Translations under genes and position numbers: made by a program
Part shown: positions 344 through 23,340 of the stretch, piece by piece
How the letters are laid out: the number at the start of each line of letters is the position of its first letter
How positions within the stretch are numbered: the stretch's first letter is position 1
The notes under the pieces: model-generated
Told to the model about the DNA's origin: nothing
Databases searched by the model: none
Seen by the model: only the letters and a program-made list of their open reading frames with translations
Origin: Synechococcus sp. WH 8016
GTDB lineage: Bacteria > Cyanobacteriota > Cyanobacteriia > PCC-6307 > Cyanobiaceae
Assembly: GCF_000230675.1 (NCBI RefSeq)
Contig: NZ_AGIK01000001.1
Location: 744,001-808,000 of the forward strand
Length of the DNA stretch: 64,000 nt
Direction of reading: 5' to 3'

Positions 344-1987
344 ATGAATATCAGAATGAAACAAATAGATTTGCAGTTGGAACTGCTAGAAGGGCCAAAT
401 GCAGACGAAGAATTATTACTAGTATTAAGATCAGCGAAAGCAATATTGCTATCAAAGATTGAAGCAAATGAATATAAAGACGGATACCATGACTTAGCGA
501 TCAAGGGCTTACAAGATGAGTCGATGCAGGAAAGATATTTAGGTGTATCTGACAAGCACCCGTTTATCGAAGATTTTACTGTTGGTGAGTTTATAGTATT
601 TGAATCATCTCTTAAAGAGATGCTGGAGTCAAAGACTAAACGCAAGAAGGGACGCCCTCGTAAAACAGAAGAAGACCAAGCTAAGCAAATCCAAAACGAT
701 GTCCAAATCGTTAGTGAAAAGTTCCAAGGTTTGCGTCATAATCGTATGACTGACCAGTATGAATACTTAAAGATTCACGATCAGACTGGCAAGCTTGGGT
801 GGCATGAAACAGAAGGCGAAGAACTCAATCAACTGTCAGTTCATCTGGCAGTAGAGCACGGCGTCTTTATTCCTGCTCAACGAGCAAAGGATGCGTTCAT
901 CTTTGTAGCTAAGAAGAACCCTTACGAGCCTCAACTCGAAATGATTGAGTGGTGCCGTAAGCAGTACCCGACAATGGGTCTTGAAGAAGCACAGGAATTC
1001 CTGTTCTCTCTTGGAGAGCAGTTGCTTGGACACCACGGTGATGAGCCGATTATTTGTGGTGAATATCTTCGCAATAGATTCCTTGCTCGATTTTTAGTTG
1101 CGATGGCATTCCTTGCCAGGCATCCAGGTGAGACACTGCAATGGATGCCAATCCTGGTAGGTGCTCAAGGGTGTGGAAAGAGTCAATTCTGCACGCATCT
1201 TGTACCCCAACGATTTAAGGATTTGTTTCAGCAGATGACCTTGCCAATCGAGACCATCAAACGTGAGCCACACCAATTACATATTGGCTTCTTGCTTGAA
1301 ATGCCTGAAATTGATGCGCAGATGCGTAATCAACGATCAATTGAGCCAATGAAAAACATGGTGACGACTCGTATTGACAATTGCCGTAAGCCATACGCAG
1401 CGCAGCCTGTCAAATTACTTAGACGCTTTGCATTGATTGGAACTACCAATCGATCTGACCTCTTTCAAGATGGCACAGGTGAACGACGGTTTATGCCTAT
1501 CCTCATTCCACATGGGTGGGAAATCCCTTGGGAAGAGGTCCGTGATGGTCTAAATGTAAAGATCTGGGCTGCAGCTGACATCATCGCCGAGACATACACT
1601 GCAAATAGCCGTGAGATGCGTGGGTTCACTGATGAAGAACGCGAAGCACTGAATACTTGGCAAAGGAACTTTACTCAAGTAGATCCTTGGGAAACTAAGT
1701 TGCTCGACTTTGCACGATTAAGGCGTGAGTTCACACCAGGACTTGCTCTGTCTCAGATTGGTGTTGAAGATTCACGGCAAACAACGTCTGATGTAAAACG
1801 ACTCAACAACCTAATGCGACTGCTCTTCACAAGAGATCAAGCAGAATACAAGCAGGTGCGACGTGATAATGGTCGTCCATGGGTATGGATTATCCGTGAG
1901 ATGCCTGGTGGGTCAACAGATGATAAACCAACAGTCACAGATTTAGAAGAATTTGCAGCTCATTTGAAGGCAAAAGCGGACTTCTAA
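344..1987 (+). CDS. VirE/D5-like primase-helicase (P-loop NTPase)
   Basis: This 547-residue protein resembles the virulence-associated-protein-E / D5-type helicase family used by phages, plasmids and satellites to open DNA at a replication origin. A Walker A motif GAQGCGKS lies near residues 273-280. A Walker B-like LLEMPEID lies near 317-324, a sensor-like segment with IGTTNRSD near 365, and GERRFMPI near 380. The N-terminal 250 residues include a basic segment (KTKRKKGRPRK) and no primase motif I can confirm, so it may act as helicase only. The start at 344 is supported by GGAG upstream. It is the first gene of the rightward island block and presumably pairs with the T7-like polymerase genes at 5870-7695 as a replication module. 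Confidence 0.82.
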   Translation: MNIRMKQIDLQLELLEGPNADEELLLVLRSAKAILLSKIEANEYKDGYHDLAIKGLQDESMQERYLGVSDKHPFIEDFTVGEFIVFESSLKEMLESKTKRKKGRPRKTEEDQAKQIQNDVQIVSEKFQGLRHNRMTDQYEYLKIHDQTGKLGWHETEGEELNQLSVHLAVEHGVFIPAQRAKDAFIFVAKKNPYEPQLEMIEWCRKQYPTMGLEEAQEFLFSLGEQLLGHHGDEPIICGEYLRNRFLARFLVAMAFLARHPGETLQWMPILVGAQGCGKSQFCTHLVPQRFKDLFQQMTLPIETIKREPHQLHIGFLLEMPEIDAQMRNQRSIEPMKNMVTTRIDNCRKPYAAQPVKLLRRFALIGTTNRSDLFQDGTGERRFMPILIPHGWEIPWEEVRDGLNVKIWAAADIIAETYTANSREMRGFTDEEREALNTWQRNFTQVDPWETKLLDFARLRREFTPGLALSQIGVEDSRQTTSDVKRLNNLMRLLFTRDQAEYKQVRRDNGRPWVWIIREMPGGSTDDKPTVTDLEEFAAHLKAKADF

Positions 1988-2003
1988 ATACAGTCCACGA
2001 CAG

Positions 2004-2038
2004 TGAATTCCATTGATTATGATGGAATTCAATAGAAT
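2004..2038 (+). promoter_or_regulatory. perfect 10-bp inverted repeat followed by a TAGAAT box
   Basis: TGAATTCCAT (2004-2013) and ATGGAATTCA (2022-2031) are perfect complements around an 8-nt loop. TAGAAT follows at 2033-2038, the same -10-like hexamer that follows the TGTCNGACA palindromes elsewhere in the island. It lies between the primase-helicase and the gene at 2080. There is no T-run, so an operator or RNA hairpin is more likely than a terminator. Confidence 0.4.
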
Positions 2039-2079
2039 AAATATAGGCACGTCCTAGATCTACTTACATAAATAAAATC

Positions 2080-2619
2080 ATGACTACTAAATCAAAAGCA
2101 AAAACTCCAAATCCATTTGACGCAAGCATTCCACTCAGATCATCAGAAGGGCAAGTTGTTGCCATTACAGTTCCACATCAAGATGTGTCATTAATCTCAC
2201 GTTATCACCCAGTCTTTCATTCCAGTGATTTAAAGACATTCGTCAAAAGAGCAGTGAATCAAACTGTTCGATGGATGATGCGTATGATCAATGGCTCTGA
2301 AAGCTTTGAGCTTGAGACGATGGATCATTGGCAATATGATCCCAAGACGGAGACACTTAAATTAAGAAACCCAGGCAAGAAGCTTAGAGACTACGATCAG
2401 ATATTCTTGACAAACTTTACTCGTGGAAATGTCAATGAATACAACCAAGGAATGGGGCAAATACTCTCGTGTAGTTGGTACAAAATTCATATGACACCTG
2501 TGACTACAGTTGAATTGATTGCTTGCCTAGATATTCTCTATCGCAGGCATCACAATGGTATTTCACCTGCATCTGCGTCGGGTGTCTTTCATACAGATAT
2601 CGATGCAACACACCTGTAA
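2080..2619 (+). CDS. hypothetical island protein of 179 residues
   Basis: The protein has a short Lys/Ser-rich start, then a mixed region with aromatic residues (near 60-75: VRWMMRMI). No family is recognised. No purine-rich Shine-Dalgarno is visible before the ATG, as for several genes of this block, and the upstream sequence is AT-rich. Its TAA stop overlaps the first bases of the 56-nt leader element that opens mini-array A, so it is physically the gene before the CRISPR operon. It could be a replication or CRISPR accessory protein, but nothing in the sequence proves that. Confidence 0.6.
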   Translation: MTTKSKAKTPNPFDASIPLRSSEGQVVAITVPHQDVSLISRYHPVFHSSDLKTFVKRAVNQTVRWMMRMINGSESFELETMDHWQYDPKTETLKLRNPGKKLRDYDQIFLTNFTRGNVNEYNQGMGQILSCSWYKIHMTPVTTVELIACLDILYRRHHNGISPASASGVFHTDIDATHL

Positions 2620-2670
2620 CGCTTTTGCGGATAAAAGACATGCTTTAGTGGAGAGTTAAATCTCTCTTAT
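2615..2670 (+). repeat. 56-nt leader element, copy 1 of 4
   Basis: The element starts TGTAACGCTTTTGC and ends directly at the first repeat of mini-array A. It holds two predicted hairpins: CTTTT/AAAAG around a 6-nt loop, and GAGAG/CTCTC around TTAAAT. Copies of exactly the same length lie at 5502, 7700 and 10066, each placed the same way. It behaves like a CRISPR leader. The stop codon of the preceding gene lies inside its first bases. Confidence 0.75.
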
Positions 2671-2778
2671 ATCTACTACGGTAGATGTGATCCTTTCAGC
2701 GAGCATTCACATAGCTCACATACCGTGGGCGTGATCCACAGGCGATCGACCTTATTTACATTGCTCACTTAGGTGGGC
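2671..2778 (+). CRISPR. CRISPR mini-array A (3 repeats, 2 spacers) upstream of cas3
   Basis: The repeats are a 6-bp stem, a 4-5-nt loop and the handle GTGATCC. Repeat 1 (2671-2693) has stem ATCTAC/GTAGAT. Repeat 2 (2714-2737) has GCTCAC/GTGGGC with loop ATACC. Repeat 3 (2763-2778) keeps the stem but has lost the handle. The spacers are 20 nt (2694-2713) and 25 nt (2738-2762). The last hairpin ends 30 nt before the cas3 ATG. The second spacer resembles spacer 6 of array E at 18 of 25 positions. Confidence 0.8.
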
Positions 2779-2794
2779 GTTTTTTATGCACACT

Positions 2795-2800
2795 TATATT
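2795..2800 (+). promoter_or_regulatory. TATATT box just upstream of cas3
   Basis: TATATT ends 8 nt before the ATG at 2809. A matching arrangement is found before the exonuclease gene (TATACT) and cas8e (TATATT), each followed by a pyrimidine-rich stretch ending in TCTTATG. If it is a -10 box, the transcript would be almost leaderless. No convincing -35 box is seen. It may instead be a conserved translation-start context. Confidence 0.4.
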
Positions 2801-2808
2801 CCACTCTT

Positions 2809-5493
2809 ATGACATTTCAAACAAAACTAATCGGCAAACTCAATAAAGATTTTGAGTATGACACTGTTCTACAGCATTGCATAAATGCTGCTAATATGGC
2901 ATATCACCGTGTCATTAATCTCGATGACCGAAGGTTAAATCATCTAGCCAATCCAATAGGCGTATCCACTCAGTCATGCGCTCAACTGATTGCAATTATC
3001 GCGGGGTCACACGATATAGCCAAAATGGATATTGCTTTTCAAACGCAACGCGGCATATACGATGCGTATCAGCAGATTAATGATTGTCATTTCCCATCTG
3101 AAATTGTAGGAGCCGTTCAAGCATTCAAAGAACAACAATCAGGGATGAAGTTAAATCCCCTTCACCATGGACCAATGGCGGCGGTCATTCTGCCTCGACT
3201 CTTTAGTGAAGAATTTGGGGTTGATCAATCAACCGCAGTGATGATGGCGCATTGTGTTACAGCACATCATGGTCTGTATCCGTCACGAGAAAGAGTCAAA
3301 AATCTAAATGACTATTTTTCTCAATTAGAAATTCACGAGCCATACCGAGAATTCGAAGCACAGCGTCTTGATTTGCTCCATCAGCTCCGTCAAGAGATTG
3401 ACCCTGATAAGACAATGGAGATACCTGATGCTATTCCTGTTGCTTGGTCGCTGCTGGTAGCAGGGCTTGTTATCAATGCAGATCACAATGCCAGCCGCGA
3501 GGCAAACTTCAGACTCATCAATGGCGAACAAAAGCCTGCAGGCTTGTCTTCAGATGAAGCATCATCAGTAATTCATCGGTATGGAATACAAAAGCCTCAG
3601 GAGATTATTAACAAAACATTAAACGGTTTTGATATTATTGCTCGCCCTCATCAAGAAAAACTAGAGCAGTTAGGTAAGCAAGATGGGATGACTGTCCTTA
3701 AGATGCCGACTGGTTCAGGTAAAACAATCGCTGCATTTATAAGTGCGATATATCACGTATGTGGATTCTCATTACTTGCGAATCGACGATCAACAGCGAA
3801 TGGAATGTTTTATGCACTGCTGAGTTTTCTTAAACGTAACCCTGATGCAACTCAGTCAATACCAGCGTTGGCTCACTCTGATGCTGGCTGTATTTTTGAA
3901 TCAGCAATGGAGTCAGTCTTGGCTGACCCTGAAGCTTACCGTGATATCGATTGTTTTACTGATGTCTGGAAAGCAGCGCTTGCTCTGCAAGGCGAGTCGC
4001 TACAAGACTGCCTATCGGCACAGTATTCAGTAGCAACAATTGACCAAGCTTTGATGTCTGTAATTGCAGATGGCAAATTTGTAGGTCGTGGATATTGGCT
4101 ATTCAGCCGTCCAATCATTATCGATGAAATCCACTCATACGATGGACGGATGGATTGCATTCTGGAAAGACTGCTTTATTACTGCGGTTTCTTTGGTACA
4201 CCTGTTATCGCTTTGACTGCGACAATCAGCACAAACAAACTAACTAAGTTTCTGGAAGCGTACGCCGAAGGACAGCAAACAAAGCTTTCGTCTGATCTTG
4301 AGTTGACGGAGCACGCTCAAGCCATCATCCTTTCTCCCTCTGGGGAACTTAGGCAGGAAGATTTGCCGTGTGATGTTCATGACGCCAAGCAAGTAGAAGT
4401 CAAGTGGTTTGAACACGGAACTTGGTTTGAGACAATCAAGCAACTAGCAGCCGACAATGATCGTATTGCTGTTGTATGTGCAACGACTACTCATGTAAGA
4501 GAGCTAACGTCACAAGTACGAGCAAAGCTGGCATCAGTGGGATTCCATGTGATGTCATATCACAGCCGTCATCGCCCAAAAGATCGCAACGCAAAAGAGA
4601 AGACCCTCTTTGAATACTGCGGAAAAGATCCGTCAATGCAGGGCAAGATCATTGTGATAGCAACGCAAGTCCTGCGTGAATCACTCGATGTGGACTTTGA
4701 TGTTGTTGTAACTCACGTCCAACCAGCAGAGGATCTAATACAAATCATGGGACGAGTAGGTCGATTCAATCGATCTAACAAAATGCCTACATATGAATTG
4801 TATTTAGAAGAACCGTGCATCACTGAGGATGACAAGTTCTCTATTGGACAAGCGGACTTTGTATTGCTACCAAAGCGAATCCAAGGTTTCCGTGGAGTGC
4901 CTGTGCTTCAAACCTATGCTTATCTCAAGCAGGACAGCATACTGTTATTGCCTCAGCAAGCACAATTGTTTGTAGATACAGCACATCAAATGCCATCAAA
5001 CCTTAAGGATGCTCCTGTTCCAAAAGGATTGCCTGTGATTTATCACAGGTTCTGGCAAGCATTTGTTGATAAGCAAGCTCTCGTGCCCCGTGCTGAGCGG
5101 TCACAAGCAGAAGAATTTGTCATTCCTAAACTGCCAGACCCAATGGATACGTCTGTTCCAATCGATGGGTTATCAGGTTTGACACGCTTCAAAGAACAAT
5201 ACATTTCACACTCGCCACGTGACATTAATTGGACGATTCAAATCTTTGTGAGACCTGCGAATTACAAAGATGACTTTTTATATAAGTCCAATTTCTTGCT
5301 ATATGTCAAGAATCACTCGGTGTCAGTTTCCAATCGTCCTCACTTTTGGCAACAAGCGCAGGGATCAGTGATGAAACCTGATCATCCAGTCCTAGGTAAT
5401 GTGGTTGATATGACTGAGGGCTCAATCAAAATGATTGGTCCTTATGAGATTGTGTATACCATCGATGGGCTTGGCATACGTTATATCAGGTGA
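2809..5493 (+). CDS. cas3: Cas3 HD-nuclease/helicase, Type I-E CRISPR
   Basis: Cas3 is the single-strand nuclease and 3'-5' helicase that degrades DNA opened by Cascade. The product is about 894 residues. An N-terminal HD domain shows HD at residues 68-69 (SHDIAKMD), HGP near 126 and AHH in the following helix. Walker A MPTGSGKT lies near 299-306, the DEAD-type motif is IIDEIH near 437, and TAT (ALTATIS) is present. The helicase C-terminal motif is QIMGRVGRFNR. The ATG at 2809 is preferred over an upstream GTG at 2773, which overlaps the repeat, because the TCTTATG start context recurs at neighbouring genes. All expected motifs are intact. It is separated from cas8e by array B, two polymerase genes and array C, which is not the usual I-E order. 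Confidence 0.93.
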   Translation: MTFQTKLIGKLNKDFEYDTVLQHCINAANMAYHRVINLDDRRLNHLANPIGVSTQSCAQLIAIIAGSHDIAKMDIAFQTQRGIYDAYQQINDCHFPSEIVGAVQAFKEQQSGMKLNPLHHGPMAAVILPRLFSEEFGVDQSTAVMMAHCVTAHHGLYPSRERVKNLNDYFSQLEIHEPYREFEAQRLDLLHQLRQEIDPDKTMEIPDAIPVAWSLLVAGLVINADHNASREANFRLINGEQKPAGLSSDEASSVIHRYGIQKPQEIINKTLNGFDIIARPHQEKLEQLGKQDGMTVLKMPTGSGKTIAAFISAIYHVCGFSLLANRRSTANGMFYALLSFLKRNPDATQSIPALAHSDAGCIFESAMESVLADPEAYRDIDCFTDVWKAALALQGESLQDCLSAQYSVATIDQALMSVIADGKFVGRGYWLFSRPIIIDEIHSYDGRMDCILERLLYYCGFFGTPVIALTATISTNKLTKFLEAYAEGQQTKLSSDLELTEHAQAIILSPSGELRQEDLPCDVHDAKQVEVKWFEHGTWFETIKQLAADNDRIAVVCATTTHVRELTSQVRAKLASVGFHVMSYHSRHRPKDRNAKEKTLFEYCGKDPSMQGKIIVIATQVLRESLDVDFDVVVTHVQPAEDLIQIMGRVGRFNRSNKMPTYELYLEEPCITEDDKFSIGQADFVLLPKRIQGFRGVPVLQTYAYLKQDSILLLPQQAQLFVDTAHQMPSNLKDAPVPKGLPVIYHRFWQAFVDKQALVPRAERSQAEEFVIPKLPDPMDTSVPIDGLSGLTRFKEQYISHSPRDINWTIQIFVRPANYKDDFLYKSNFLLYVKNHSVSVSNRPHFWQQAQGSVMKPDHPVLGNVVDMTEGSIKMIGPYEIVYTIDGLGIRYIR

Positions 5494-5501
5494 AATATGG
5501 G

Positions 5502-5557
5502 TGTAACGCTTTTGCAGATAAAAGACATGCTTAAGGGGATAGTTAAATCTCTCCTAT
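5502..5557 (+). repeat. 56-nt leader element, copy 2 of 4
   Basis: This copy begins 8 nt after the cas3 stop and abuts the first repeat of array B. The first hairpin is identical to copy 1 (CTTTT/AAAAG). The second stem differs (GGGGA/TCTCC) but still pairs, which indicates selection on RNA or DNA secondary structure. Confidence 0.75.
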
Positions 5558-5841
5558 ATCCACTACGGTGGATGTGATCCTGCACTTGCTCACATACCGT
5601 GGGCGTGATCCCGAGATCACATACTCATCAAGTTGCTCACTTCGGTGGGCGTAATCCTTCAGTGATCCAACGACGCCACTTGCTCACTCTCGTGGGCGTG
5701 ATCCTGACATTTACGCTAGGCATCTATTGCTCATTTAGGTGGGCGTGATCCTCGGATGTTGAAGGCGTTGGTATCTATAGCTCACATACCGTGGGCGTGA
5801 TCCTCGGGCCAATGACTATCCACTTGCTCACTTCGGTGGGC
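5558..5841 (+). CRISPR. CRISPR mini-array B (7 repeats, 6 spacers) between cas3 and the exonuclease gene
   Basis: Repeats lie at 5558-5580 (stem ATCCAC/GTGGAT), 5588-5611, 5635-5657, 5682-5704, 5729-5751, 5780-5803 and 5826-5841. All but the first use GCTCAC/GTGGGC, or GCTCAT with a closing G-U pair, and the loops vary (TTCG, TCTC, TTAG, ATACC). The handle is GTGATCC, once GTAATCC, and is lost in the last repeat. Spacers are 7, 23, 24, 24, 28 and 22 nt. The 7-nt first spacer is too short for a guide and may be a deletion scar. The last hairpin ends 28 nt before the next ATG. Confidence 0.82.
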
Positions 5842-5854
5842 GTATTTATTCACC

Positions 5855-5860
5855 TATACT
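5855..5860 (+). promoter_or_regulatory. TATACT box upstream of the exonuclease gene
   Basis: TATACT ends 9 nt before the ATG at 5870, in the same CAC-TATA-T...TCTTATG context as cas3 and cas8e. It is a candidate -10 box without a clear -35. Confidence 0.4.
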
Positions 5861-5869
5861 TCTATTCTT

Positions 5870-6388
5870 ATGGAACTTTTATATGACATAGAGAGCACCG
5901 GACTTCTCCGGCAAGGCTCTCAAATTCATTGCATTGTCGTCAGAAATCTGGCAGATGATGAATCGCCACCACTAGTTTTTGATACTGTCAAAAACAACGT
6001 AGATGAAGGCGTCAAACTACTTGAAAGTGCTGACTTACTAGTGGGCCACAATATCATCTCGTATGATGAAGCGTTATTACATGAGCTATATCCAAATTTC
6101 AATCCACCGAAAAAGGTCCTTGATACTTTGGTGCTTAGTCGCTTGTACTATGCAACTTTAGCTGATAAAGATTTCACTCGCTCTCCTTACGGACTGCCAA
6201 AGCGACTTTATGGGTCACATTCATTAGAGGCGTGGGGACTGCGACTTGGAGAAGAGAAAGGTGACTTTGGCAAACAGAATGATTGGTCTACATACTCAGA
6301 TGCGATGCTTCAATACTGTATTCAAGATACTACGACCAACATTAAATTATACCGTCTAATGCAAAGACGAATGGAGGCAAACCAATGA
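5870..6388 (+). CDS. 3'-5' exonuclease domain protein, like the N-terminal part of T7 DNA polymerase
   Basis: The 172 residues align by eye with the proofreading domain of phage T7 gp5. The Exo I motif DIES supplies Asp6 and Glu8. GHNIISYD corresponds to Exo II. DTLVLSRL and GSHSLEAWGLRLGE match conserved T7-family segments. The C-terminal YCIQD (about 149-153) is Exo III. In T7 this domain is fused to the polymerase. Here it stops and the polymerase domain starts in an ATGA overlap at 6385-6388, so the two halves are separate, translationally coupled proteins. It presumably proofreads for, or assembles with, the next gene product. Confidence 0.85.
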   Translation: MELLYDIESTGLLRQGSQIHCIVVRNLADDESPPLVFDTVKNNVDEGVKLLESADLLVGHNIISYDEALLHELYPNFNPPKKVLDTLVLSRLYYATLADKDFTRSPYGLPKRLYGSHSLEAWGLRLGEEKGDFGKQNDWSTYSDAMLQYCIQDTTTNIKLYRLMQRRMEANQ

Positions 6389-7695
6389 TTATTCCTGATT
6401 ATGTCGAACTTGAGATGGATCTGGCACGGATCATGGCACGTCAAGAGGCATCTGGATTCCGCTTAGATATTGCTGCTGCTACTCGTATTCAAAAGATACT
6501 CTCAAGTCGATTCGAGAAGATACGCACGGGTCTGATCCATCGTTTTCCAGCGATGAAAGGCAAACTTAAGATACCCAAGGTTCGGTCATCCAAACGAAAC
6601 ACACAAGCAGGCTGTCCATTTCATGAGCTGTTGGAATTCAACCCAACTTCCCGTGTTCATATTGCCCATGCCCTGCAAACACTAGGTGTTGAGTTTGACA
6701 AGAAGACAGATTCAGGTCAGATCCAAATCGACGAAGACATTCTTGCTTCTGTTATGGAAGACCATGACTACTCACGTCGCGCTCGTAAATCCGCTCGACA
6801 CTTTCGGACACTACTGAAACTCCAGAAGTGGATGGGCCAGTTATCTGAAGGTGCAAATGCCTGGATCAAAAAAGTAGGCGATGACGGTTGTATCCACCAC
6901 AGTTGTCGCCTCGCTACTCAAACAGGACGCAATGCTCACTCAGGTCCCAACCTCGGGCAGGTCGTTTCTGCACCATGGGCTCGTCAACTATTTGTCCCGC
7001 ATAAAGGTCACGTTCTTGTGGGAGTCGATTTAGAAGGGCTGGAATTGAGGGCACTTGGGCACTTCCTCGCACCCTATGACGAGGGACGCTTTGCTCACAT
7101 TGTTGTCAATGGCGATATTCACCAGATCAACGCCGATTCTGTATCTACGCCTGAGACGCCAATCTCAAGAAAGCTCGTGAAAAGTCTCACCTATGGGTTC
7201 ATCTATGGGGCGGGCGATGTCAAGTTAGGCAAACTAGTTCACCCCACTTTATCTGAATCATCACAACGCATACGAGGGAAGGAGTTACGTCAGAAATTTC
7301 TTGATGCAATTCCTGGACTTGAACCATTGGTGGCTGCTGTAAAAGATCGGATCAGAACTGAAGGGCAACTCAAGGGTCTGGATGGTCGTCCTATCACTTG
7401 TACGGCGGAACATGCCGGACTGAACTACTGCTTGCAAGGGTCTGGTGCAGTCCTGAGTAAGCGTTGGGTTGTAATTGCTTACAACGATGTCATTGCTAAA
7501 TACGAGTGGGGTAAGGACTTCACTTTCTGTGTTTATTGTCATGACGAGATCCAAGCATCATGTCGCCCTGAGATTGCTGAAGATATCAAAACAATCATCG
7601 AAGCAGCTGCACTAAAAGCAGGCGAATACTACAACTTCCGCGTACCTATTACGGCAGCAGGGGAGATTGGGACATCCTGGCAAGATACACACTGA
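6385..7695 (+). CDS. T7-like family A DNA polymerase, polymerase domain only
   Basis: The 436-residue protein carries the polymerase motifs of family A. Motif A is DLEGLELRALGHF with Asp215. Motif B is KLVKSLTYGFIYGAG, residues 263-277. Motif C is HDEIQ, residues 386-390, with Asp387 and Glu388. FNPTSR, GDIHQIN and GLDGR are characteristic of the T7 gp5 branch rather than bacterial PolI. All catalytic residues seem intact. The upstream exonuclease is a separate overlapping gene. Its position inside a cas operon, flanked by CRISPR mini-arrays, is very unusual. It probably replicates the island, together with the VirE-type helicase. Confidence 0.9.
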   Translation: MIIPDYVELEMDLARIMARQEASGFRLDIAAATRIQKILSSRFEKIRTGLIHRFPAMKGKLKIPKVRSSKRNTQAGCPFHELLEFNPTSRVHIAHALQTLGVEFDKKTDSGQIQIDEDILASVMEDHDYSRRARKSARHFRTLLKLQKWMGQLSEGANAWIKKVGDDGCIHHSCRLATQTGRNAHSGPNLGQVVSAPWARQLFVPHKGHVLVGVDLEGLELRALGHFLAPYDEGRFAHIVVNGDIHQINADSVSTPETPISRKLVKSLTYGFIYGAGDVKLGKLVHPTLSESSQRIRGKELRQKFLDAIPGLEPLVAAVKDRIRTEGQLKGLDGRPITCTAEHAGLNYCLQGSGAVLSKRWVVIAYNDVIAKYEWGKDFTFCVYCHDEIQASCRPEIAEDIKTIIEAAALKAGEYYNFRVPITAAGEIGTSWQDTH

Positions 7696-7699
7696 TGGG

Positions 7700-7755
7700 T
7701 GTAACGCTTTTGCAGATAAAAGACATGCTTTAGTGGAGAGTTAAATCTCTCTTAT
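7700..7755 (+). repeat. 56-nt leader element, copy 3 of 4
   Basis: This copy starts 4 nt after the polymerase stop and abuts the first repeat of array C. It is nearly identical to copy 1, including both hairpins (CTTTT/AAAAG and GAGAG/CTCTC). Confidence 0.75.
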
Positions 7756-7862
7756 ATCTACTTCGGTAGATGTGATCCTGACACGACCCATTCATATCTG
7801 ATCACTTCGGTGGTCGTGATCCTACCAAAAATGGCGATTGCTAACTGCTCACTTAGGTGGGC
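7756..7862 (+). CRISPR. CRISPR mini-array C (3 repeats, 2 spacers) upstream of cas8e
   Basis: Repeat 1 (7756-7778) has ATCTAC/GTAGAT. Repeat 2 (7800-7822) has GATCAC/GTGGTC, a compensated change of the usual stem, with an intact handle. Repeat 3 (7847-7862) lacks the handle and ends 27 nt before the cas8e ATG. Spacers are 21 and 24 nt. Confidence 0.8.
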
Positions 7863-7872
7863 GATATTCACT

Positions 7873-7878
7873 TATATT
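7873..7878 (+). promoter_or_regulatory. TATATT box upstream of cas8e
   Basis: TATATT ends 11 nt before the ATG at 7890, in the same start context as cas3 and the exonuclease gene. It is a candidate -10 box without a visible -35. Confidence 0.38.
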
Positions 7879-7889
7879 CTTTCACTCTT

Positions 7890-9563
7890 ATGACTATGAC
7901 ACACAACAATCTTGTATCAGACCCATGGGTCGCTGCTTTATATACCGATGGTAAAAACCGATATGTCTCACTAGAAACACTATTTACTGACTGGAATCAG
8001 ATCGCTGATATCACAGGTGTAGATGGTATGTCCACTCTATGCATCATGCATTTCCTAAAGATAATCCTGATGCGTGTATCAGGTGGAGTCGCTAATGTCG
8101 CTGATGTAAGAGCTCTGCTTGACTCAAACGATCTACAGCAAAATGTCCTGCAATATCTAGCGGAGAATAAAGATCTCTTCAACGTAAGAGACGAAACAAA
8201 ACCATTCTTACAGATAGCTGAGATTGGGACTCTAAAAGCTTCCAATGGTTCGATGTTATGTCAGCCAGAAAATTTAAATGCCTTGCTAATTACAGGCAAG
8301 ACTGAGAAGGATCTGTTGTTTGGCTATCAGTATTTGATTGATGATGTTCCCCCATTTGAATTTATTGACATCGCTCAATTCCTATTGCGTGAAGCATTTG
8401 CTGGTAAATATGGCAGGTGCTCTTCCTTGTCTTCATCAAAGGTAGATGAGATGAGGAAGCTAGGTCAATCAAAGTTTGAAGCAAATGCTTCTAAATCATT
8501 GTTACCTAATCGCACACATGTGGTCGCAAAACTGCCAACACTACGAGAAACAATAATCGTCAACTTACCCAAGTGCCTCGTTGATGAGACTGAAGTGGCT
8601 CCATGGGAGAAGTCAAGACGACCGTTCCCTGTTACTGTAACGCCAGATAATGAGTTTCAGTTATTATCTACGCTTTCTAAATCAACATTGATTTTATGGA
8701 ATGGTGATGCACCTTATAAAGTATTCTCTGGTCCATCTGAGAAAATACAACGTGAGTGGATTGATGACACACTGCCTTTGCGTAATGATCTACTGCAATC
8801 GTGCCCACGAATTACAGCAGCAAATGTTTTGAAGTTCTTATCACCATCAAACAAATCATCTGATTGGTCTGATATGAGAACAATCTTTGAGACATTGGGG
8901 CATTCATCAATTCAGCCTGCACCAATCACAGAACACTGGCAAGACCTGCGTGATGCAGGACTCATGCCCGAATCCATCGGATATGAAGTGCTCGGCGTTG
9001 TGATGGCAGGTCTTAATAATCCTGCGATTGCATCTGTAACTCAAGCATCAATGACTGTTCCATCTAATGTATTTGAGCAGGGACTGGTAAGTAAGAACTT
9101 ACTTGGATTGCTTGCATTCATTTCTCGCATTAATCGTGAAGCGTTCTTGCCAGGCTACGACGATAGTAATGAAAAAGGAGATAAGAAAAAGCGTCTGTTG
9201 AACAAACGACCCCTTAATCTTCTTAATCAATTCGCACGATGGGCAAAGCCTGGACTTGGATCTGGCGATGCACTCAAGACACGCTATCCACTATCTGAGC
9301 AATACCTCGGCTTATCTCAACCGTTATTTGAGGAAGCAGTCCAGTGGATTATTGACAATCCAAATGCTGGATTGGTTGCTGTCTCTGATAAATTCAAGAG
9401 TTTAAAGAAACGGACTTTAGATATTGCTTTGGGTCTGTGGAACCAAACTCTTGGCACATTGCCTCTGACAACCATTGGCTATGTCCAAGCAGTGGGTCAC
9501 GCAAACGCAAAATTTCAATTCATCAAACGTAAATTAGAGGAAGAAATCAATGGCACTCGCTGA
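7890..9563 (+). CDS. cas8e: Cas8e (Cse1/CasA), large subunit of Type I-E Cascade
   Basis: Cse1 recognises the PAM and recruits Cas3 to Cascade. The product is 557 residues from the ATG at 7890; an upstream in-frame GTG overlaps the repeat hairpin and is less likely. The N-terminus (NLVSDPWVAAL) and length fit the Cse1 family, which is typically about 500 residues. Segments such as PFLQIAE and the helical C-terminal third are family-like. It overlaps cse2 by 14 nt, the usual coupling of these subunits. Identification rests on fold-level resemblance plus strict neighbourhood with cse2, cas7e and cas5e. The PAM-reading loops cannot be verified by eye. Confidence 0.85.
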   Translation: MTMTHNNLVSDPWVAALYTDGKNRYVSLETLFTDWNQIADITGVDGMSTLCIMHFLKIILMRVSGGVANVADVRALLDSNDLQQNVLQYLAENKDLFNVRDETKPFLQIAEIGTLKASNGSMLCQPENLNALLITGKTEKDLLFGYQYLIDDVPPFEFIDIAQFLLREAFAGKYGRCSSLSSSKVDEMRKLGQSKFEANASKSLLPNRTHVVAKLPTLRETIIVNLPKCLVDETEVAPWEKSRRPFPVTVTPDNEFQLLSTLSKSTLILWNGDAPYKVFSGPSEKIQREWIDDTLPLRNDLLQSCPRITAANVLKFLSPSNKSSDWSDMRTIFETLGHSSIQPAPITEHWQDLRDAGLMPESIGYEVLGVVMAGLNNPAIASVTQASMTVPSNVFEQGLVSKNLLGLLAFISRINREAFLPGYDDSNEKGDKKKRLLNKRPLNLLNQFARWAKPGLGSGDALKTRYPLSEQYLGLSQPLFEEAVQWIIDNPNAGLVAVSDKFKSLKKRTLDIALGLWNQTLGTLPLTTIGYVQAVGHANAKFQFIKRKLEEEINGTR

Positions 9564-10062
9564 TCATATTATTCGCGTTGTAAAAAATAAACCTGGAATG
9601 CGTATGCAGCTGCTTACGCAATGCGGCATCCAACCATCACCAGAAGTTATAGCCGATGTACAGAAATCATTTGGCATCAAAGGACCTGATGCGTTCCCAG
9701 CAATCGTCACCGTGGCACGTCTAGTAGCACAACATACGCCTGCTACTGGTCAATTCGAAGGACATAATGCTGAATCTAAAGCACTAGGACGTGTATTACG
9801 TCAGTGGGCTGATGCAACTGGAACAAAAGATCAAGTTCTCAAGAGGATTACTCGATGTGTGTCAATGGATCTTAAGTATTCACGTCCACATATTGAGTCA
9901 ATGCTAAATCAATTACTCGGCAAAGGTTATCAACTAAACATCGGATCTCTGTTTGGTGATTTGATGCATTGGGATGACAAGCCTGCTATGCCACGTATTC
10001 GTCTTGTAACTTCTTTCTCTCGTCTAAATGATGATGCCGAGGCTACATCAGAAGACACTTAA
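9550..10062 (+). CDS. cse2: Cse2 (CasB), small subunit of Type I-E Cascade
   Basis: This is a 170-residue, mainly helical, basic protein at the position always occupied by cse2, between cas8e and cas7e. Cse2 dimers stabilise the crRNA-DNA hybrid and displaced strand. It is within the normal family size (about 160-200). The ATG at 9550 lies inside the end of cas8e and follows a GAGGAAG Shine-Dalgarno. Its stop is followed by the fourth leader element. Primary sequence alone would be weak, so the call depends on context. Confidence 0.8.
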   Translation: MALADHIIRVVKNKPGMRMQLLTQCGIQPSPEVIADVQKSFGIKGPDAFPAIVTVARLVAQHTPATGQFEGHNAESKALGRVLRQWADATGTKDQVLKRITRCVSMDLKYSRPHIESMLNQLLGKGYQLNIGSLFGDLMHWDDKPAMPRIRLVTSFSRLNDDAEATSEDT

Positions 10063-10065
10063 GGG

Positions 10066-10121
10066 TGTAACGCTTTTGCAAATAAAAGACATGCTTTAGT
10101 GGAGAGTTAAATATCTCCTAT
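10066..10121 (+). repeat. 56-nt leader element, copy 4 of 4
   Basis: This copy starts 3 nt after the cse2 stop and abuts the first repeat of array D. The second stem changed to GGAGA/TCTCC, again with pairing preserved. The first stem CTTTT/AAAAG is unchanged, with one loop difference. Confidence 0.75.
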
Positions 10122-10192
10122 ATCCACTTCGGTGGATGTGATCCCTCACTTATCGCATCCGATCGGTCAAACCCTTGCTCACTTCGGTGGGC
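10122..10192 (+). CRISPR. CRISPR mini-array D (2 repeats, one 32-nt spacer) upstream of cas7e
   Basis: Repeat 1 (10122-10144) has ATCCAC/GTGGAT and the full handle. Repeat 2 (10177-10192) has GCTCAC/GTGGGC with a changed handle. The single spacer, 10145-10176, is 32 nt, the canonical Type I-E length and unlike the 20-28 nt typical elsewhere here. Its bases 2-5, 7-20 and 22 match cas7e at 10341-10361 (mismatches at 1, 6 and 21), so the crRNA would address the start of the next gene. Confidence 0.83.
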
Positions 10193-10195
10193 GTG

Positions 10196-10215
10196 CCTGA
10201 GATTTCAATCTCGGG
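10196..10215 (+). promoter_or_regulatory. 8-bp hairpin between array D and cas7e
   Basis: CCTGAGAT and ATCTCGGG pair over 8 bp around TTCA, immediately after the last array D repeat. It may be a highly diverged extra repeat hairpin, since its size and loop match, but the handle is missing. Confidence 0.45.
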
Positions 10216-10249
10216 CGTCGTAATTATAAACTTTCAATCCTTATTTCAA

Positions 10250-11692
10250 ATGTCTAATCAAAACAATACCGCTTTAGGAACAATCATGGATACCTCTCAC
10301 GTTACACCACCTGCTATTTCAGAAGATGTAGTACAGGAAATCACCTATCGCATCCGATCCGGTGCCAATCTTCGTGGTCGTCAAGGTGCTTATATCATCA
10401 ACTCAACGCTGAGGACTATTACTCATAACTACGGTTCACGCTCTGAATCAGGTCAAGCAAATATCACCTATATCGGTGGCACACCACGGGCAATGATCTC
10501 AAGCAATAGTCGGACACGAGCTCTTCGTCATCTTGCAGAAGAACTGACTGACATCGAGGAACTGACGGAAGAGCGTGATCGTTCTGTTTTCCGTCACTGC
10601 TTTGAAGCGATGACAGCTGCTGCACCTCAGTCCACAATTGATCTGAGGCTTGACCTTGCTTATATCGCTGCTTTTGTTGGCATCAGTCAGAAGCGACTGG
10701 ACACTGAACAAAAAGATGGACGATATGTATCTGCATTGATGCGAGACTACGTCAGTAATAAAGAGCAGATTGTTGGTATCTATCAAGCAGTTGCAGATGG
10801 AACTGCATTATCAGCTGATGACCAAGCTATTTACGAGAATCCTTGGCTGCTTTTCAAACGCAATGAGGATACAATCCAGCCAGTTTCTTACTATCAAAGA
10901 CAGTTCTTGGCTGAAATTGTCGCCGCTGGTGCTGTCAAAAAGACAGCGAAAGCAAAAGAACTGACGCCTCTAACAGAGATGAGTTTTAAAGAACTCAAAG
11001 ACTTTGTCGAACGCGAATATCGCAAAAAGTCCTTTGCTGGTCTAGGTGTCGCTTTATGTGGTGACACTAAATGCGATATGCCGGAGACATCAGTTACAGG
11101 TGCGCTGTCAGTCAATCATTCGTTCTCCACGGGTGAACTTCAACTGACAAATACGTTAGGTACTGCAAATGCAAAAACTCCAGATTGGGAAGATCATGCA
11201 GGTGCGGAACTAATGTTCAATCGTGAACAGACCTCCGGTGTGTTCTTTGAACCTAACCTCTGGGACATGGATCAGTTGCATCTAAATCTTCCTCATCTGA
11301 CAGAAGCGCAATTCTTGAAAGCAACTGCTGAATCGATGCGAGCACAAATCCTTGCAACGATTGATGGTGGTCAACGGTGCTCAAGCACTCGCTCTTTCCC
11401 TGATGTCTCGATTAACGTGGTGACGAGCTCCGTCCCAATTACTTTCGAAGGTGCATTCGTCCAACCTGTTCCATTTGGCACAGAAGAAGGAGATCAGGTT
11501 GCTTCTGCTAATCGATTGATCTCTCACATCGAAGATTTTCGTTCTATGTACGGACGAGAAGGATACATCCCTATCATTCTTGCGACACCAACCATCCGCA
11601 AGCAAGTGGAGATTCCAACAGATTGGGTAGTTTGTGAATCAATTGATGCATACCTGCAGACCACTCTTGAGATTGCTGGAGAGATCAAATGA
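10250..11692 (+). CDS. cas7e: Cas7e (Cse4/CasC), backbone subunit of Type I-E Cascade
   Basis: Cas7e forms the helical backbone that holds the crRNA. The family signature near the N-terminus appears as TPRAMISSNSRTRALRHL at residues 78-95 (compare the usual R-R-x-R-I-S-S-Q motif). The central segment LSVNHSFST corresponds to the conserved HAFSTH region. The predicted length from the ATG at 10250 is 480 residues, noticeably longer than the usual 350-380. About 75 residues precede the R-I-S motif, where about 30 are usual, and more inserts follow. The gene overlaps cas5e by ATGA. Codons around residues 31-37 form a near match to the upstream spacer. A TTG-initiated longer frame exists but would start in the repeat. 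Confidence 0.87.
   Translation: MSNQNNTALGTIMDTSHVTPPAISEDVVQEITYRIRSGANLRGRQGAYIINSTLRTITHNYGSRSESGQANITYIGGTPRAMISSNSRTRALRHLAEELTDIEELTEERDRSVFRHCFEAMTAAAPQSTIDLRLDLAYIAAFVGISQKRLDTEQKDGRYVSALMRDYVSNKEQIVGIYQAVADGTALSADDQAIYENPWLLFKRNEDTIQPVSYYQRQFLAEIVAAGAVKKTAKAKELTPLTEMSFKELKDFVEREYRKKSFAGLGVALCGDTKCDMPETSVTGALSVNHSFSTGELQLTNTLGTANAKTPDWEDHAGAELMFNREQTSGVFFEPNLWDMDQLHLNLPHLTEAQFLKATAESMRAQILATIDGGQRCSSTRSFPDVSINVVTSSVPITFEGAFVQPVPFGTEEGDQVASANRLISHIEDFRSMYGREGYIPIILATPTIRKQVEIPTDWVVCESIDAYLQTTLEIAGEIK
10340..10361 (+). other. protospacer-like match to the array D spacer inside cas7e
   Basis: The coding strand here agrees with spacer 10145-10176 at 19 of its first 22 positions; mismatches are at spacer positions 1, 6 and 21, and similarity ends after 22. 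In Type I-E every sixth crRNA base is flipped out and not read, so a position 6 mismatch is tolerated. The flanking PAM position reads GAA. The run 10346-10359 is a perfect 14-mer. This suggests partial, possibly non-cleaving, self-targeting. Confidence 0.6.
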
Positions 11693-12342
11693 CATATACA
11701 GGAATTGTCAATATCGCAGCAGTGAGAACGGGTGTTGGCGTAATTAACTCAAATTACAAATCACCTGGTGGTCAATCAACTCTCACGAAATCTGCAGTCA
11801 TCGGAATGATGGCTGCGGCTATGGGTCGCACAAGAGACCAATCGATTGATGATCTCAATGATTTGAAGATCGCAACTGTCGTCATCAATAGTGGCATTGC
11901 GCATAAGCAGTTCTCAACCATCTTTGGTGGGATGAAGATTGATGGGAAGATCCGTAAGGATCCTTGCATCCGGCGTAAAACGTTCTATCAATCACATGAA
12001 GCAGGACCTGCTGGCGATCATCTAATTCGTCATCTGGTTTTCTTTGAATCAGACAATAAAGAATTGATCGATGCTGTTCTGGCTGCGTTTACTGCACCGG
12101 TATTCCCTGTGTATATCGGACGCAAGACGTGTCTGCCTGTAGAACCAATGGCTGTTGGTTCAATTGAAGGTGATCTCAATGATGGCTTGGCTTTAGTCAA
12201 AACTCCTGCAATGGCTACGGTTGAAGTCGAAGCACGATCTGGCATTACACCAATGCGTCGTATTGCGGACGTGATCGATGGTCTAAAAACTAGACGGTCA
12301 CTATCTCGGATGGTGACAACGGTTGCTCTAAATTCTGCCTAA
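11689..12342 (+). CDS. cas5e: Cas5e (CasD), Type I-E Cascade subunit
   Basis: Cas5e caps the 5' handle of the crRNA. The characteristic segment TKSAVIGMMAAAMGR (about 33-47) and the YIGRKTCLPVEPM block in the second half (about 141-153) match the Cas5e family closely. At 217 residues the length is normal (about 220-240). It starts in an ATGA overlap with cas7e, so the two are translationally coupled. Its stop codon is followed, without a 56-nt leader, by mini-array E. Confidence 0.9.
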   Translation: MTYTGIVNIAAVRTGVGVINSNYKSPGGQSTLTKSAVIGMMAAAMGRTRDQSIDDLNDLKIATVVINSGIAHKQFSTIFGGMKIDGKIRKDPCIRRKTFYQSHEAGPAGDHLIRHLVFFESDNKELIDAVLAAFTAPVFPVYIGRKTCLPVEPMAVGSIEGDLNDGLALVKTPAMATVEVEARSGITPMRRIADVIDGLKTRRSLSRMVTTVALNSA

Positions 12343-12348
12343 GCAACT

Positions 12349-12838
12349 TGTCCCTACGGGGACGTGATCCTATCGCCGACATGGAGTTCAGCACCTGCTC
12401 ACTTCGGTGGGCGTGATCCACCCGATCCCTGCGAAGGCGTTGCTCACTCAGGTGGGCGTGATCCTGGTGGGATTGCTCCAAAACAGCTCACATCTCGTGG
12501 GCGTGATCCCATTGCGACCGCAAACGTCATTAGCTCACATCTCGTGGGCGTGATCCCTCAGGGGTTTTCAAAAACCAATTGCTCACTTCGGTGGGCGTGA
12601 TCCACAGGCGTATGACATCTCTTACATTGCTCACTTCGGTGGGCGTGATCCTTCGTATACAGCACGTGGTACCTGATCACTTCGGTGGTCGTGATTCCAT
12701 AGGCACTCTCAGGAACAAACTGCTCACTTAGGTGGGCGTGATCCTACTTGCAGCCTCAAGGTCCTCCGATCCACATTGCTCACTTTGGTGGGCGTGATTC
12801 TAGGTCGTATCGGTCATCTATTGCTCACTTCGGTGGGC
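12349..12838 (+). CRISPR. CRISPR array E (11 repeats, 10 spacers) between cas5e and tRNA-Arg
   Basis: Repeats start at 12349, 12397, 12442, 12486, 12533, 12581, 12629, 12675, 12722, 12778 and 12823. The first is diverged (GTCCC/GGGAC). The one at 12675 has GATCAC/GTGGTC, and the rest have GCTCAC/GTGGGC with loops TTCG, TCAG, ATCTC, TTAG or TTTG. The handle is GTGATCC, GTGATTCC or GTGATTC, and is lost in the last repeat. Spacers are 26, 22, 21, 23, 24, 25, 23, 23, 33 and 22 nt. Spacer 5 contains its own small hairpin (GGTTT/AAACC). This array has no 56-nt leader. Confidence 0.88.
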
Positions 12839-12844
12839 GCACAT

Positions 12845-12917
12845 GCCTTTGTAGCTCAGCGGAATAGAGCATTGCACTTCTAATGCATTGGTCGCTGGTT
12901 CGAATCCAGCCAAAGGC
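12845..12917 (+). tRNA. trnR-UCU: tRNA-Arg(UCU)
   Basis: The 73-nt sequence folds as a cloverleaf: acceptor stem GCCTTTG/CAAAGGC, D stem GCTC/GAGC, an anticodon stem with one terminal mismatch, loop CTTCTAA giving anticodon TCT, and T arm GCTGG/CCAGC with loop TTCGAAT. CCA is not encoded. It begins 6 nt after the last hairpin of array E and lies within the cas operon, ahead of cas6e. It reads the rare AGA codon (and AGG by wobble), used by the AT-richer island. RNase P and RNase Z processing here would also separate the array transcript from the cas6e message. Confidence 0.92.
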
Positions 12918-12919
12918 GT

Positions 12920-12949
12920 TGCCCATTCGGGCACTTGACCATCTTGGTC
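12920..12949 (+). promoter_or_regulatory. two small hairpins between the tRNA and cas6e
   Basis: TGCCC/GGGCA (12920-12933, loop ATTC) and GACCA/TGGTC (12937-12949, loop TCT) follow the tRNA directly. Their size resembles the repeat hairpin, so they may be decayed repeats or RNA structures in the cas6e leader. Confidence 0.45.
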
Positions 12950-12977
12950 GTTATTTATATCCATCGCAATTCATACA

Positions 12978-13583
12978 ATGTCTTTTCGTACAATCGCCAC
13001 AGTAGATACATCACGCATCGATGTCGCACGTGATATCGCAGATAGAGATAGATTACACAAGCGTTTGATGTCCTTGTACCCAGACAATCTGGGTTCTTCT
13101 CCACGTAAGAAAATCAATCTGTTATTCACAGTTGATGTACCATCATCAACAATTATTTTCCAAGCGGATATGCCGCCAGTGACCAGTCCTCTCAATGATG
13201 CACGCAATCAATACTTCACATCCGTTGATACGACTGAAGTTTTAACAGAAGTAACCCAAGGAGACACAGTTAAATTTCAACTGGTCTTGGCTGGGCTCAT
13301 TCGTCACTCAGGCACAGGCAAGCGAACAACTGTTCTTGACAATAAAGTAATGATTGCTAAAGCTAGAGGCAGTCTTGGCAAGAATGGTATCAATGTATCT
13401 ACTATTGAATGTATTGGGACTGATGAGGTTGTCAGTGAAAAACGTGGGATCCGTTACTACAACTACTTTCTCATTGGTGAAGCTACCGTAACTGATGCTG
13501 ATGCTGTAGCAACTGCTGTAAGGCAAGGTCTCGGGGCAGGTCGTCTTTGGGGCAGTGCAATGTTATTTGTATCTAGTGTCTGA
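12978..13583 (+). CDS. cas6e: Cas6e (Cse3/CasE), crRNA-processing endoribonuclease
   Basis: Cas6e cuts the precursor crRNA at the 3' base of each repeat hairpin. The product is 201 residues, normal for the family. The N-terminal helix DRDRLHKRLMSLYPD contains His27, in the position of the catalytic histidine. The C-terminal glycine-rich RNA-binding loop is GLGAGRLWGSAM, from about residue 184. It is set apart from cas5e by array E and a tRNA gene. Its substrate, GCTCAC/GTGGGC hairpins, also occurs before other operon genes, so it could cut operon mRNA as well. A TGTCNGACA palindrome overlaps its stop codon. Confidence 0.87.
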   Translation: MSFRTIATVDTSRIDVARDIADRDRLHKRLMSLYPDNLGSSPRKKINLLFTVDVPSSTIIFQADMPPVTSPLNDARNQYFTSVDTTEVLTEVTQGDTVKFQLVLAGLIRHSGTGKRTTVLDNKVMIAKARGSLGKNGINVSTIECIGTDEVVSEKRGIRYYNYFLIGEATVTDADAVATAVRQGLGAGRLWGSAMLFVSSV

Positions 13584-13597
13584 CAAGTTATTAGAAT
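13577..13597 (+). promoter_or_regulatory. TGTCTGACA palindrome and TAGAAT box
   Basis: TGTCTGACA at 13577-13585 overlaps the cas6e stop codon. TAGAAT follows at 13592-13597, 22 nt before the next ATG. This marks the likely end of the cas transcription unit and a new promoter. Confidence 0.58.
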
Positions 13598-13619
13598 AGA
13601 AGTAGTTTAAACCAAAGTC

Positions 13620-14048: not shown

Positions 14049-14053
14049 ATAAC

Positions 14054-14073
14054 TGTCGGACATTAGATAGAAT
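14054..14073 (+). promoter_or_regulatory. TGTCGGACA palindrome and TAGAAT box
   Basis: TGTCGGACA is at 14054-14062 and TAGAAT at 14068-14073, 27 nt before the ATG at 14101. The arrangement is almost the same as at 13577. Confidence 0.58.
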
Positions 14074-14100
14074 AGGCTTAATAGATACAAACATAGAGCA

Positions 14101-15403: not shown

Positions 15404-15421
15404 CAGCTTGACGTTCATTGG

Positions 15422-23262: not shown

Positions 23263-23308
23263 CACTTTGGGGTAGTGGGGGTCGTGGGTTCAAATCCCGC
23301 CGCTCCGA
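23263..23308 (+). other. 3' fragment of tRNA-Pro(GGG), presumed island attachment site
   Basis: The stretch carries the 3' half of a tRNA: anticodon loop TTGGGGT with part of its stem, T arm GTGGG-TTCAAAT-CCCGC and the acceptor 3' strand ending GCTCCGA. No D arm or 5' acceptor strand precedes it, so it cannot be a working tRNA. Such partial tRNA copies are left by integrases that insert at tRNA 3' ends. The intact gene should be at the other island end, left of this window. Confidence 0.72.
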
Positions 23309-23340
23309 TTTCAAACAAAAACTCAAATCCCATTCATCAA

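Follow-up and report, generated by a model that had tools for sequence, protein, structure and literature searches.

In type I-E CRISPR-Cas systems, six interference genes follow one another as cas3-cas8e-cas11e-cas7e-cas5e-cas6e, the hairpin repeats, of Cas6e type and with the handle on the 3' side, are near-identical and recur about every 61 nucleotides (nt), and adaptation genes are usually, though not obligatorily, present. In type I systems the handle of the mature CRISPR RNA (crRNA) comes from the upstream repeat and the stem-loop from the downstream repeat, and one Cas7 step corresponds to 6 nt. Some described systems depart from this scheme in ways that matter here; the papers on them are cited from excerpts. 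The two-repeat creA genes of CreTA keep the handle in the upstream and the stem in the downstream repeat, and small-RNA sequencing of creA gave an 8-nt 5' handle and a 22-nt 3' handle (PMC8501985). The virus-like elements SPV1 and SPV2 carry mini-CRISPR arrays of few spacers behind a leader, with host-like repeats and without cas genes (PMC6858448), and CRISPR-Cas components are also borne on plasmids (PMC9071438). CRISPR is absent from nearly all marine Synechococcus genomes surveyed, and strain WH 8016 is named as a marine exception with CRISPR-Cas, with reference to Cabello-Yeves et al. 2018 (PMC11316352); that study may describe the operon treated here. The operon lies in a stretch of 64,000 nt from Synechococcus sp. 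WH 8016 (the window, G000:C1:744001-808000, where G000:C1 stands for contig NZ_AGIK01000001.1 and window position 1 is G000:C1:744001). It is a type I-E interference set with mini-arrays, a real, non-random and functional-looking feature of unusual, element-wide placement, and it lies in an 80-kb integrated element. We consider it probable (about 0.68) that this virus-related element has a divergent, interference-only type I-E system and keeps its guides in mini-arrays between gene blocks.

All six interference proteins of the operon match type I-E models in profile scans (NCBIfam, Pfam, PADLOC), and their genes follow the usual order on the plus strand, which is also the strand of all leaders and arrays of the window. 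cas3 (2809..5493) is identified by PADLOC Cas3e (2e-87), by TIGR01587 and TIGR01596, both over cut-off, and by matches to Cas3 structures; its reading frame already begins at a GTG at 2773, within the last hairpin of array 1, and the ATG at 2809 is its likely start. It is followed by cas8e (cse1; 7890..9563; PF09481 1.9e-27, 97 bits; PADLOC Cas8e 7.3e-19), cas11e (cse2; 9550..10062; PF09485 26.9 bits against a cut-off of 24.6; PADLOC Cas11e 4.4e-09), cas7e for a protein of 480 amino acids (aa; 10250..11692; PF09344 1.2e-22; PADLOC Cas7e 6.3e-22), cas5e (11689..12342; PF09704 1.5e-11; PADLOC Cas5e 1.5e-18) and cas6e (12978..13583; PF08798 5.2e-13; PADLOC Cas6e 2.6e-16), which presumably encodes the crRNA-processing nuclease. 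A histidine of this Cas6e is aligned with five Cas6e proteins from related genomes, and we take it to be the catalytic residue. Adaptation genes seem to be missing: Cas1 (PF01867) has no match at E <= 1 in the genome of the strain (2.69 Mb in 16 contigs, 99.5% complete), while the same profile, as a control, finds matches in 10 of 14 genomes, and no Cas2 appeared among the operon proteins in general scans, which included no model search aimed at Cas2.

A preliminary description of this DNA had reported five arrays with 26 repeats, placed before cas3, an exonuclease gene, cas8e, cas7e and a segment with a tRNA gene and cas6e, and both the placement and the number can be seen in the sequence (3+7+3+2+11 hairpins on a recount). 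Array 1 (2671..2778) has 3 hairpins and 2 spacers, array 2 (5558..5841) 7 hairpins and 6 gaps, array 3 (7756..7862) 3 hairpins and 2 spacers, array 4 (10122..10192) 2 hairpins and 1 spacer, and array 5 (12350..12838) 11 hairpins and 10 spacers. The 21 spacers given before correspond to 21 gaps, but the first gap of array 2 (5581-5587) measures 7 nt and is thus too short for a guide, which leaves 20 usable spacers. A common leader of about 56 nt had been noted for four of the arrays, and copies of it indeed precede arrays 1 to 4 (2615..2670, 5502..5557, 7700..7755 and 10066..10121) and not array 5. In arrays 1 to 4 there are 27-57 nt between the end of the last hairpin and the start codon that follows (of cas3, the exonuclease gene, cas8e and cas7e, respectively), and in array 5 there are 5 nt between the last hairpin and the tRNA gene that separates this array from cas6e. 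From ordinary type I-E systems the locus thus differs not only in the lack of Cas1, but also in the exonuclease, polymerase and tRNA genes that are inserted in the operon, in repeats that are not copies of one another and whose stems vary, in their spacing, and in arrays that are spread over 50 kb.

The region 2615-13583, to which the preliminary description had assigned the pattern, does contain these arrays, but the pattern begins earlier and spans the whole element instead of the operon alone. With patterns composed after inspection of the sequence, 71 hairpins were listed between G000:C1:706139 and 756838 (about 50 kb), 68 of them in 16 arrays of at least two hairpins each and three solitary by a 45-nt grouping. 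A covariance model built from 38 hairpins recovers 69 in the element, all on the plus strand and none on the minus strand, of which 38 are the training hairpins, matching by construction, and 31 are independent. The handle motif GTGATCC occurs 52 times on the plus strand and 3 times on the minus strand, against an expectation of 3.8 from 20 first-order Markov sequences. Of the 52, 43 sit right after a perfect hairpin of 6 base pairs, where 0.0 are expected. The association of hairpin and handle is not due to chance. The leader is present in 12 copies in the element, with a 33-nt core that is kept with 0-3 mismatches. Nine copies lead into a whole first hairpin, one of these (736561) with a changed handle, two (733848, 736458) lead into degenerate hairpins, and one (711620) lacks a hairpin. 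As the core of this last copy ends 22 nt ahead of an ATG, the leader core is likely a promoter. A second motif, GTAAGTCC, precedes several hairpins that have no immediate leader (G000:C1 ~709035, 712910, 713000, 733970 and 742855) and is perhaps another promoter or signal.

The hairpins within an array are not equivalent. The handle GTGATCC, with at most one mismatch, is found in 49 of 52 hairpins that are not the last of their array and in none of the 16 last ones (Fisher 6.6e-13); the earlier statement that every last repeat has a changed handle thus applies to 5/5 arrays in the window and to 16/16 across the element. The GCTCA-type stem is found in none of the 16 first hairpins, in 32 of 36 internal and in 15 of 16 last hairpins (47/52 of the non-first ones). 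The stem of the first hairpin and the handle of the last hairpin enter no crRNA, and it is therefore exactly these two parts that are released from conservation. As judged from the sequence, selection is acting on the crRNA unit, with only those halves conserved that enter the mature crRNA. The same division is known from creA, where the first repeat keeps the handle part and the last one the stem part, whereas here there are arrays of 2 to 11 hairpins with complete internal repeats, in many copies and with no recognised creT (PMC8501985). Also the stems themselves covary: 27 cells of the stem alignment have two-sided changes, compared to 6.2 +/- 2.3 after shuffling (0 of 500 shuffles reach 27), 99.4% of the stem cells are paired, and slid alignments score far lower, with rows that are hairpins with a good handle, a choice that favours pairing but not compensatory change.

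The start-to-start spacing of the hairpins is mostly 43-56 nt with a mode of 47, whereas arrays in four related genomes with type I-E genes have a spacing of ~61-65 nt, and the unit is thus shorter by ~14 nt or more, which is roughly two Cas7 steps. From the handle (7 nt) to the next stem there are 20-33 nt, with a median of 24 over 52 gaps and three abnormal gaps (-4, 1 and 7 nt) outside that range. Type I-E Cascades with spacers cut by 6 or 12 have been reported to still support Cas3 degradation, if more slowly (PMC7296934), and defence is therefore possible with short guides; in type I-B, crRNA length has been linked to repression (PMC10551041, PMC10989794; all three in excerpt). The pattern of conservation and loss points to guides that are actually produced and put to use, and crRNA production from these arrays is likely.

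Only for one spacer could a source be traced, and this source is the host. The first spacer of array 5 together with the next hairpin (12372..12417, plus strand) is host-derived and antisense to a gene for an arginase-family protein with EF-hands, with 94% identity over 47 columns to G000:C1:633756-633802(-) (E 2.5e-12) and an identical run of 25 nt (12376-12400) that covers 21 nt of spacer and 4 nt of stem. A control with hairpins kept and spacers shuffled (20 sets), run on the examined DNA stretches, peaks at 37.4 bits, compared to 68.9 bits observed. In the orthologue of another genome, G018, the stretch is 85% alike and its longest identical run with the array 5 unit is 11 nt; the unit is closest to the present host, and the direction is thus from host to element. 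No other place among 182,530 windows in 91 kb of host DNA is as repeat-like as the host flank aligned with the hairpin, and all ten windows with the top score overlap this flank. An insertion at the leader end would leave a first repeat that is a copy of the next one, which is not what the arrays show. As host match and repeat-like flank coincide at one place, this one case suggests a capture guided by repeat resemblance, for example through RecE-type recombination or template switching; an alternative explanation is selection for longer antisense pairing. Such a capture would be near to, but distinct from, the recombination with host arrays by which leaderless phage mini-arrays might gain spacers, as is remarked in PMC6858448. 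The host sequence ahead of the match, GATGATCC, is handle-like and, by analogy with the rules of type I-E systems, would spare the host gene from cutting.

Searches for further targets covered four of the 16 arrays against the own genome, where the arginase/EF-hand match alone is above chance and the three other arrays are at chance level. Two arrays were also compared with 399 genomes of the order (E <= 0.005, two candidates scored in each), where three and five genomes besides the own one are matched, with ~2 expected for each; the genome G018, with its orthologue of the same host gene, is the exception to these chance-level matches. For the other 12 arrays, targets were sought in the examined DNA stretches and in 38 viral contig loci that are related to the element (see below). 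Targeting of the element itself was rejected, as the seeds match the element no more than do shuffled spacers. The single spacer of array 4 (10146-10164) matches the coding strand of the next gene, cas7e (10341-10359), in 18/19 nt; with 31.0 bits, which is within the control over all examined DNA, cas7e was rejected as a target. One spacer of array 1 (2738-2762) and one of array 5 (12604-12628) both begin with ACAGGCG and have TTACAT close to their end, and look as if one had diverged from the other.

A number of results weigh against a functional guide system. All five Cascade proteins miss the NCBIfam cut-offs, including the signature proteins Cas8e and Cas11e, which are over the Pfam cut-offs but under the NCBIfam cut-offs of 70.05 and 28.5, and activity is therefore not assured. 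Three of the 12 leaders have no intact first hairpin, one more has a hairpin with a changed handle, array 5 is leaderless, and no sigma-70-like promoter was found in the four leaders of the window. Of five covariation measures, the number of further pair types does not exceed that in shuffles (9 versus 8.2), the fold of one array is only moderately better than shuffles (z -2.28), and some hairpins are missing from the minimum-energy fold. The four arrays compared with the own genome found nothing above chance among 50,697 phage records (best E ~1), with no match named as a cyanobacterial phage, and 49 spacers reach at most 28.3 bits in the 38 related viral loci, where controls reach 25.6-31.9. 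To this adds that the one traceable source is the host and not a foreign replicon.

A rival reading is that the guides are regulatory. As with creA, short crRNAs may steer Cascade to repress genes of host or element or a toxin, and thereby tie the host to the element. The divergence of first and last repeats is the same as in creA, and tRNA-Arg(UCU), which in Haloarcula hispanica is sequestered by CreT, adjoins array 5 (PMC8501985, in excerpt); in addition, the guides are short, one unit is antisense to the arginase/EF-hand gene, and a spacer weakly matches cas7e. However, this cas7e match and the seed matches to the element do not exceed their controls, the four arrays searched genome-wide gave a single host match, and the tRNA gene (12844..12919, plus strand, anticodon TCT; ARAGORN; Rfam RF00005 68.9 bits) is explained simply by codon usage, as AGA makes up 24.7% of the arginine codons of the element but 5.5-7% in the host flanks. 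Seven short frames with tandem AGA came up in a crude scan of the element, none of which was shown to be a toxin. We regard a regulatory role of this kind as unlikely. It is somewhat less likely again that the hairpins are punctuation only, in which case the cuts by Cas6e would separate and trim the mRNAs of the element, with the intervening stretches as filler and with no guide complex that matters. The position of the last hairpins, 27-57 nt before start codons and 5 nt before the tRNA gene, fits with this, and so do the variable gap lengths and the lack of foreign targets, but cutting by itself leaves unexplained that loss of the handle is confined to last hairpins and lack of the usual stem to first hairpins, and also that there are arrays of 7-11 hairpins and six recognisable interference genes.

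A decaying cellular immune system that has lost cas1-cas2 and is breaking up would agree with the lack of a Cas1 match in the genome, and in one survey 40.7% of the CRISPR-bearing picocyanobacterial genomes were without cas1 (PMC11316352, in excerpt). But decay would not keep the pairing through two-sided changes, would not alter handles almost only at last positions and would not keep 12 near-identical leaders, which makes it improbable. According to the excerpt of PMC10651486, viruses have solitary repeats, often just 3' of a predicted promoter, that can function as RNA anti-CRISPRs (Racr), and three of the hairpins here are solitary; yet the element has its own cas genes and 68/71 hairpins are in arrays, and decoys against other CRISPR systems are thus very improbable. 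The least probable explanation is that of unrelated repetitive elements, be they REP sequences, attenuators or terminators, a possibility that the preliminary description had named against itself. In arrays 1 and 2 the last hairpin has a T-rich tail and was listed as terminator-like, but no Rfam family matches the hairpins in window 2000-14000, and strand bias, handle, polarity and the presence of cas6e within the same operon all speak against it. The core of the earlier claim, mini-arrays placed between the gene blocks of a type I-E cas operon, is upheld by the six type I-E proteins and by Cas6e-like hairpins with covarying stems and a positional loss of repeat halves.

If the preferred reading of an interference-only system with mini-array guides is correct, each array would be transcribed together with the next gene, in many cases from directly behind a conserved leader, and Cas6e would cut 3' of each stem. 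The resulting crRNA would consist of an 8-nt handle (GUGAUCC and one further nucleotide), a guide of ~20-30 nt and a stem-loop that is in most cases of the GCUCAC type, and would be loaded into a Cascade that may be shorter than the canonical complex by roughly two Cas7 subunits. At the last hairpin, cutting would at the same time define where the downstream mRNA begins. If the one case is representative, recombination at repeat-like sequence may bring in new units without Cas1-Cas2. Competing mobile DNA is most likely what the guides are directed against. A bolder proposal, which we make tentatively and regard as doubtful, is that the arrays are processed leaders of the element genes, with one promoter class and Cas6e serving both crRNAs and mRNAs, a short Cascade, and a Cas1-Cas2-free capture at repeat-like host sequences that brings in the adjacent 20-25 nt as a spacer.

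The element that carries the system comprises 80,398 nt between a tRNA-Pro(GGG) gene (G000:C1:686837-686910) and a 49-nt repeat at 767263. This repeat is a copy of the 3' part of the tRNA gene and forms the right end (23263..23311, plus strand), whereas the left end, at G000:C1:686865, is not within the window. The G+C content of the element is 44.2%, compared to 54.8% and 54.7% in the flanking stretches examined. Just inside the left end a tyrosine integrase is weakly indicated (PHROG 1e-05; Pfam 17.6 bits, under the cut-off of 27.1), so that, with the tRNA site and direct repeats at both ends, the element has the marks of an integrative element. Tycheposons of picocyanobacteria likewise have a recombinase gene beside the tRNA gene at which they integrate; the replication genes of the present element resemble those of viral contigs. 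Its genes include a DNA ligase, a helicase, a RecE-like exonuclease, a primase-like protein, a VapE-like protein and a split family-A polymerase, the latter with a 3'-5' exonuclease (5870..6388, plus strand; NF011539 6.8e-06; best 60% in the viral loci) and a polymerase part (6385..7695, plus strand; PF00476 3.4e-32; best ~55%) inside the cas operon. Relatives of the helicase at 47-57% identity occur in 38 IMG/VR viral contig loci, which also match the primase-like protein (31/38), the 3'-5' exonuclease (30/38) and the polymerase (25/38). The 38 loci (L050-L087) thus form a virus group with a common primase-helicase-exonuclease-polymerase set that is related to the element. The VapE-like P-loop replication protein (344..1987, plus strand; PF05272 E 1.1e-34) is ~36% identical to a gene that is also matched by the element helicase, in 38/38 of these loci.

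In the examined stretches of the 38 loci the cas genes have no match and no hairpins of the present kind were found, with one match at E 0.44. No virion families (capsid, portal, terminase) were recognised among the portion of the element proteins that was scanned; a weak small-terminase match (4.5e-4) concerns a protein that fits a regulator better. The element may thus be either a virus or a satellite. Large minus-strand proteins are encoded at both element ends, one of 1926 aa (window 15422-21202) at one end and three of 649, 864 and 1029 aa (L009:5912-7861, 8683-11277 and 13077-16166) at the other. They have no Pfam or PHROG match except for a BRCT domain in the 1029-aa protein, would be adjacent if the element circularises, and are perhaps a virion module. 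For the 864-aa protein and the VapE-like protein no relative was found in viral contigs by a search that sees close relatives only. Repeats of the TGTCTTA/TAAGACA type form two intergenic clusters (L010:6914-7330 and L011:6906-7450; G000:C1 ~710914-711330 and 730906-731450) that look like iterons or replication origins. Between small genes at G000:C1 ~703831-727000 (L010 and left L011) there are many terminator-like modules of near-identical sequence (GCCACC..GGTGGCTTTTT, in many cases with CGTGTCC behind it), and farther to the right this position is occupied by mini-arrays.

Conservation in related cyanobacteria, by which the preliminary description proposed that its reading be checked, did not emerge. 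When the array covariance model was applied to 398 other genomes of the order, with stricter filters and 19 candidates scored per genome, no cluster came up; three of these genomes have single matches at E 0.02-0.1. The leader has 0 matches in 298 other genomes and 0 in viral contigs, and the exact repeat 0 in viral and 0 in genome contigs; Cas8e and Cas3 have no relative in viral contigs, and Cas7e none in genome contigs, phages or plasmids; the contig searches among these detect close relatives only. In 399 genomes of the order, Cas7e matches itself and five weakly, and in four of these five genomes there are long ordinary arrays in the stretches examined. Matches to Cas3 were seen in five records of the phage collection. 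In G222, a genome of the same genus, two similar hairpin-like stretches occur 50 nt apart (L037:19900-19967; G222:C3:47401-47467), in surroundings that were read by eye; considered as a possible relative, the second hairpin matches the array model weakly, with 22.7 bits. The design may be rare or undersampled.

The preliminary description knew of no described system with this layout, which is too strong a statement in view of the split repeats of creA and the leader-bearing mini-arrays of viruses. The combination has its own character, however: unlike SPV1 and SPV2 the element has cas genes, and unlike plasmid-borne CRISPR-Cas it has arrays seeded between the element genes and not only beside the cas operon, as far as the excerpts of PMC6858448 and PMC9071438 go. 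Literature searches on mini-arrays among cas genes, on WH 8016 and the systems of picocyanobacteria, on short spacers and on cas1-independent acquisition met no such layout in titles, beginnings of abstracts and some passages, which is no proof of its absence. If the reading proposed here is true, the supply of crRNAs would be coupled to the expression of single gene modules of a mobile element, the position-specific losses would be natural evidence of which repeat parts a type I-E crRNA needs, and the system would offer a natural Cascade with short guides. Also the gain of spacers in systems without cas1 would become testable, as one unit points to capture at a repeat-like site.

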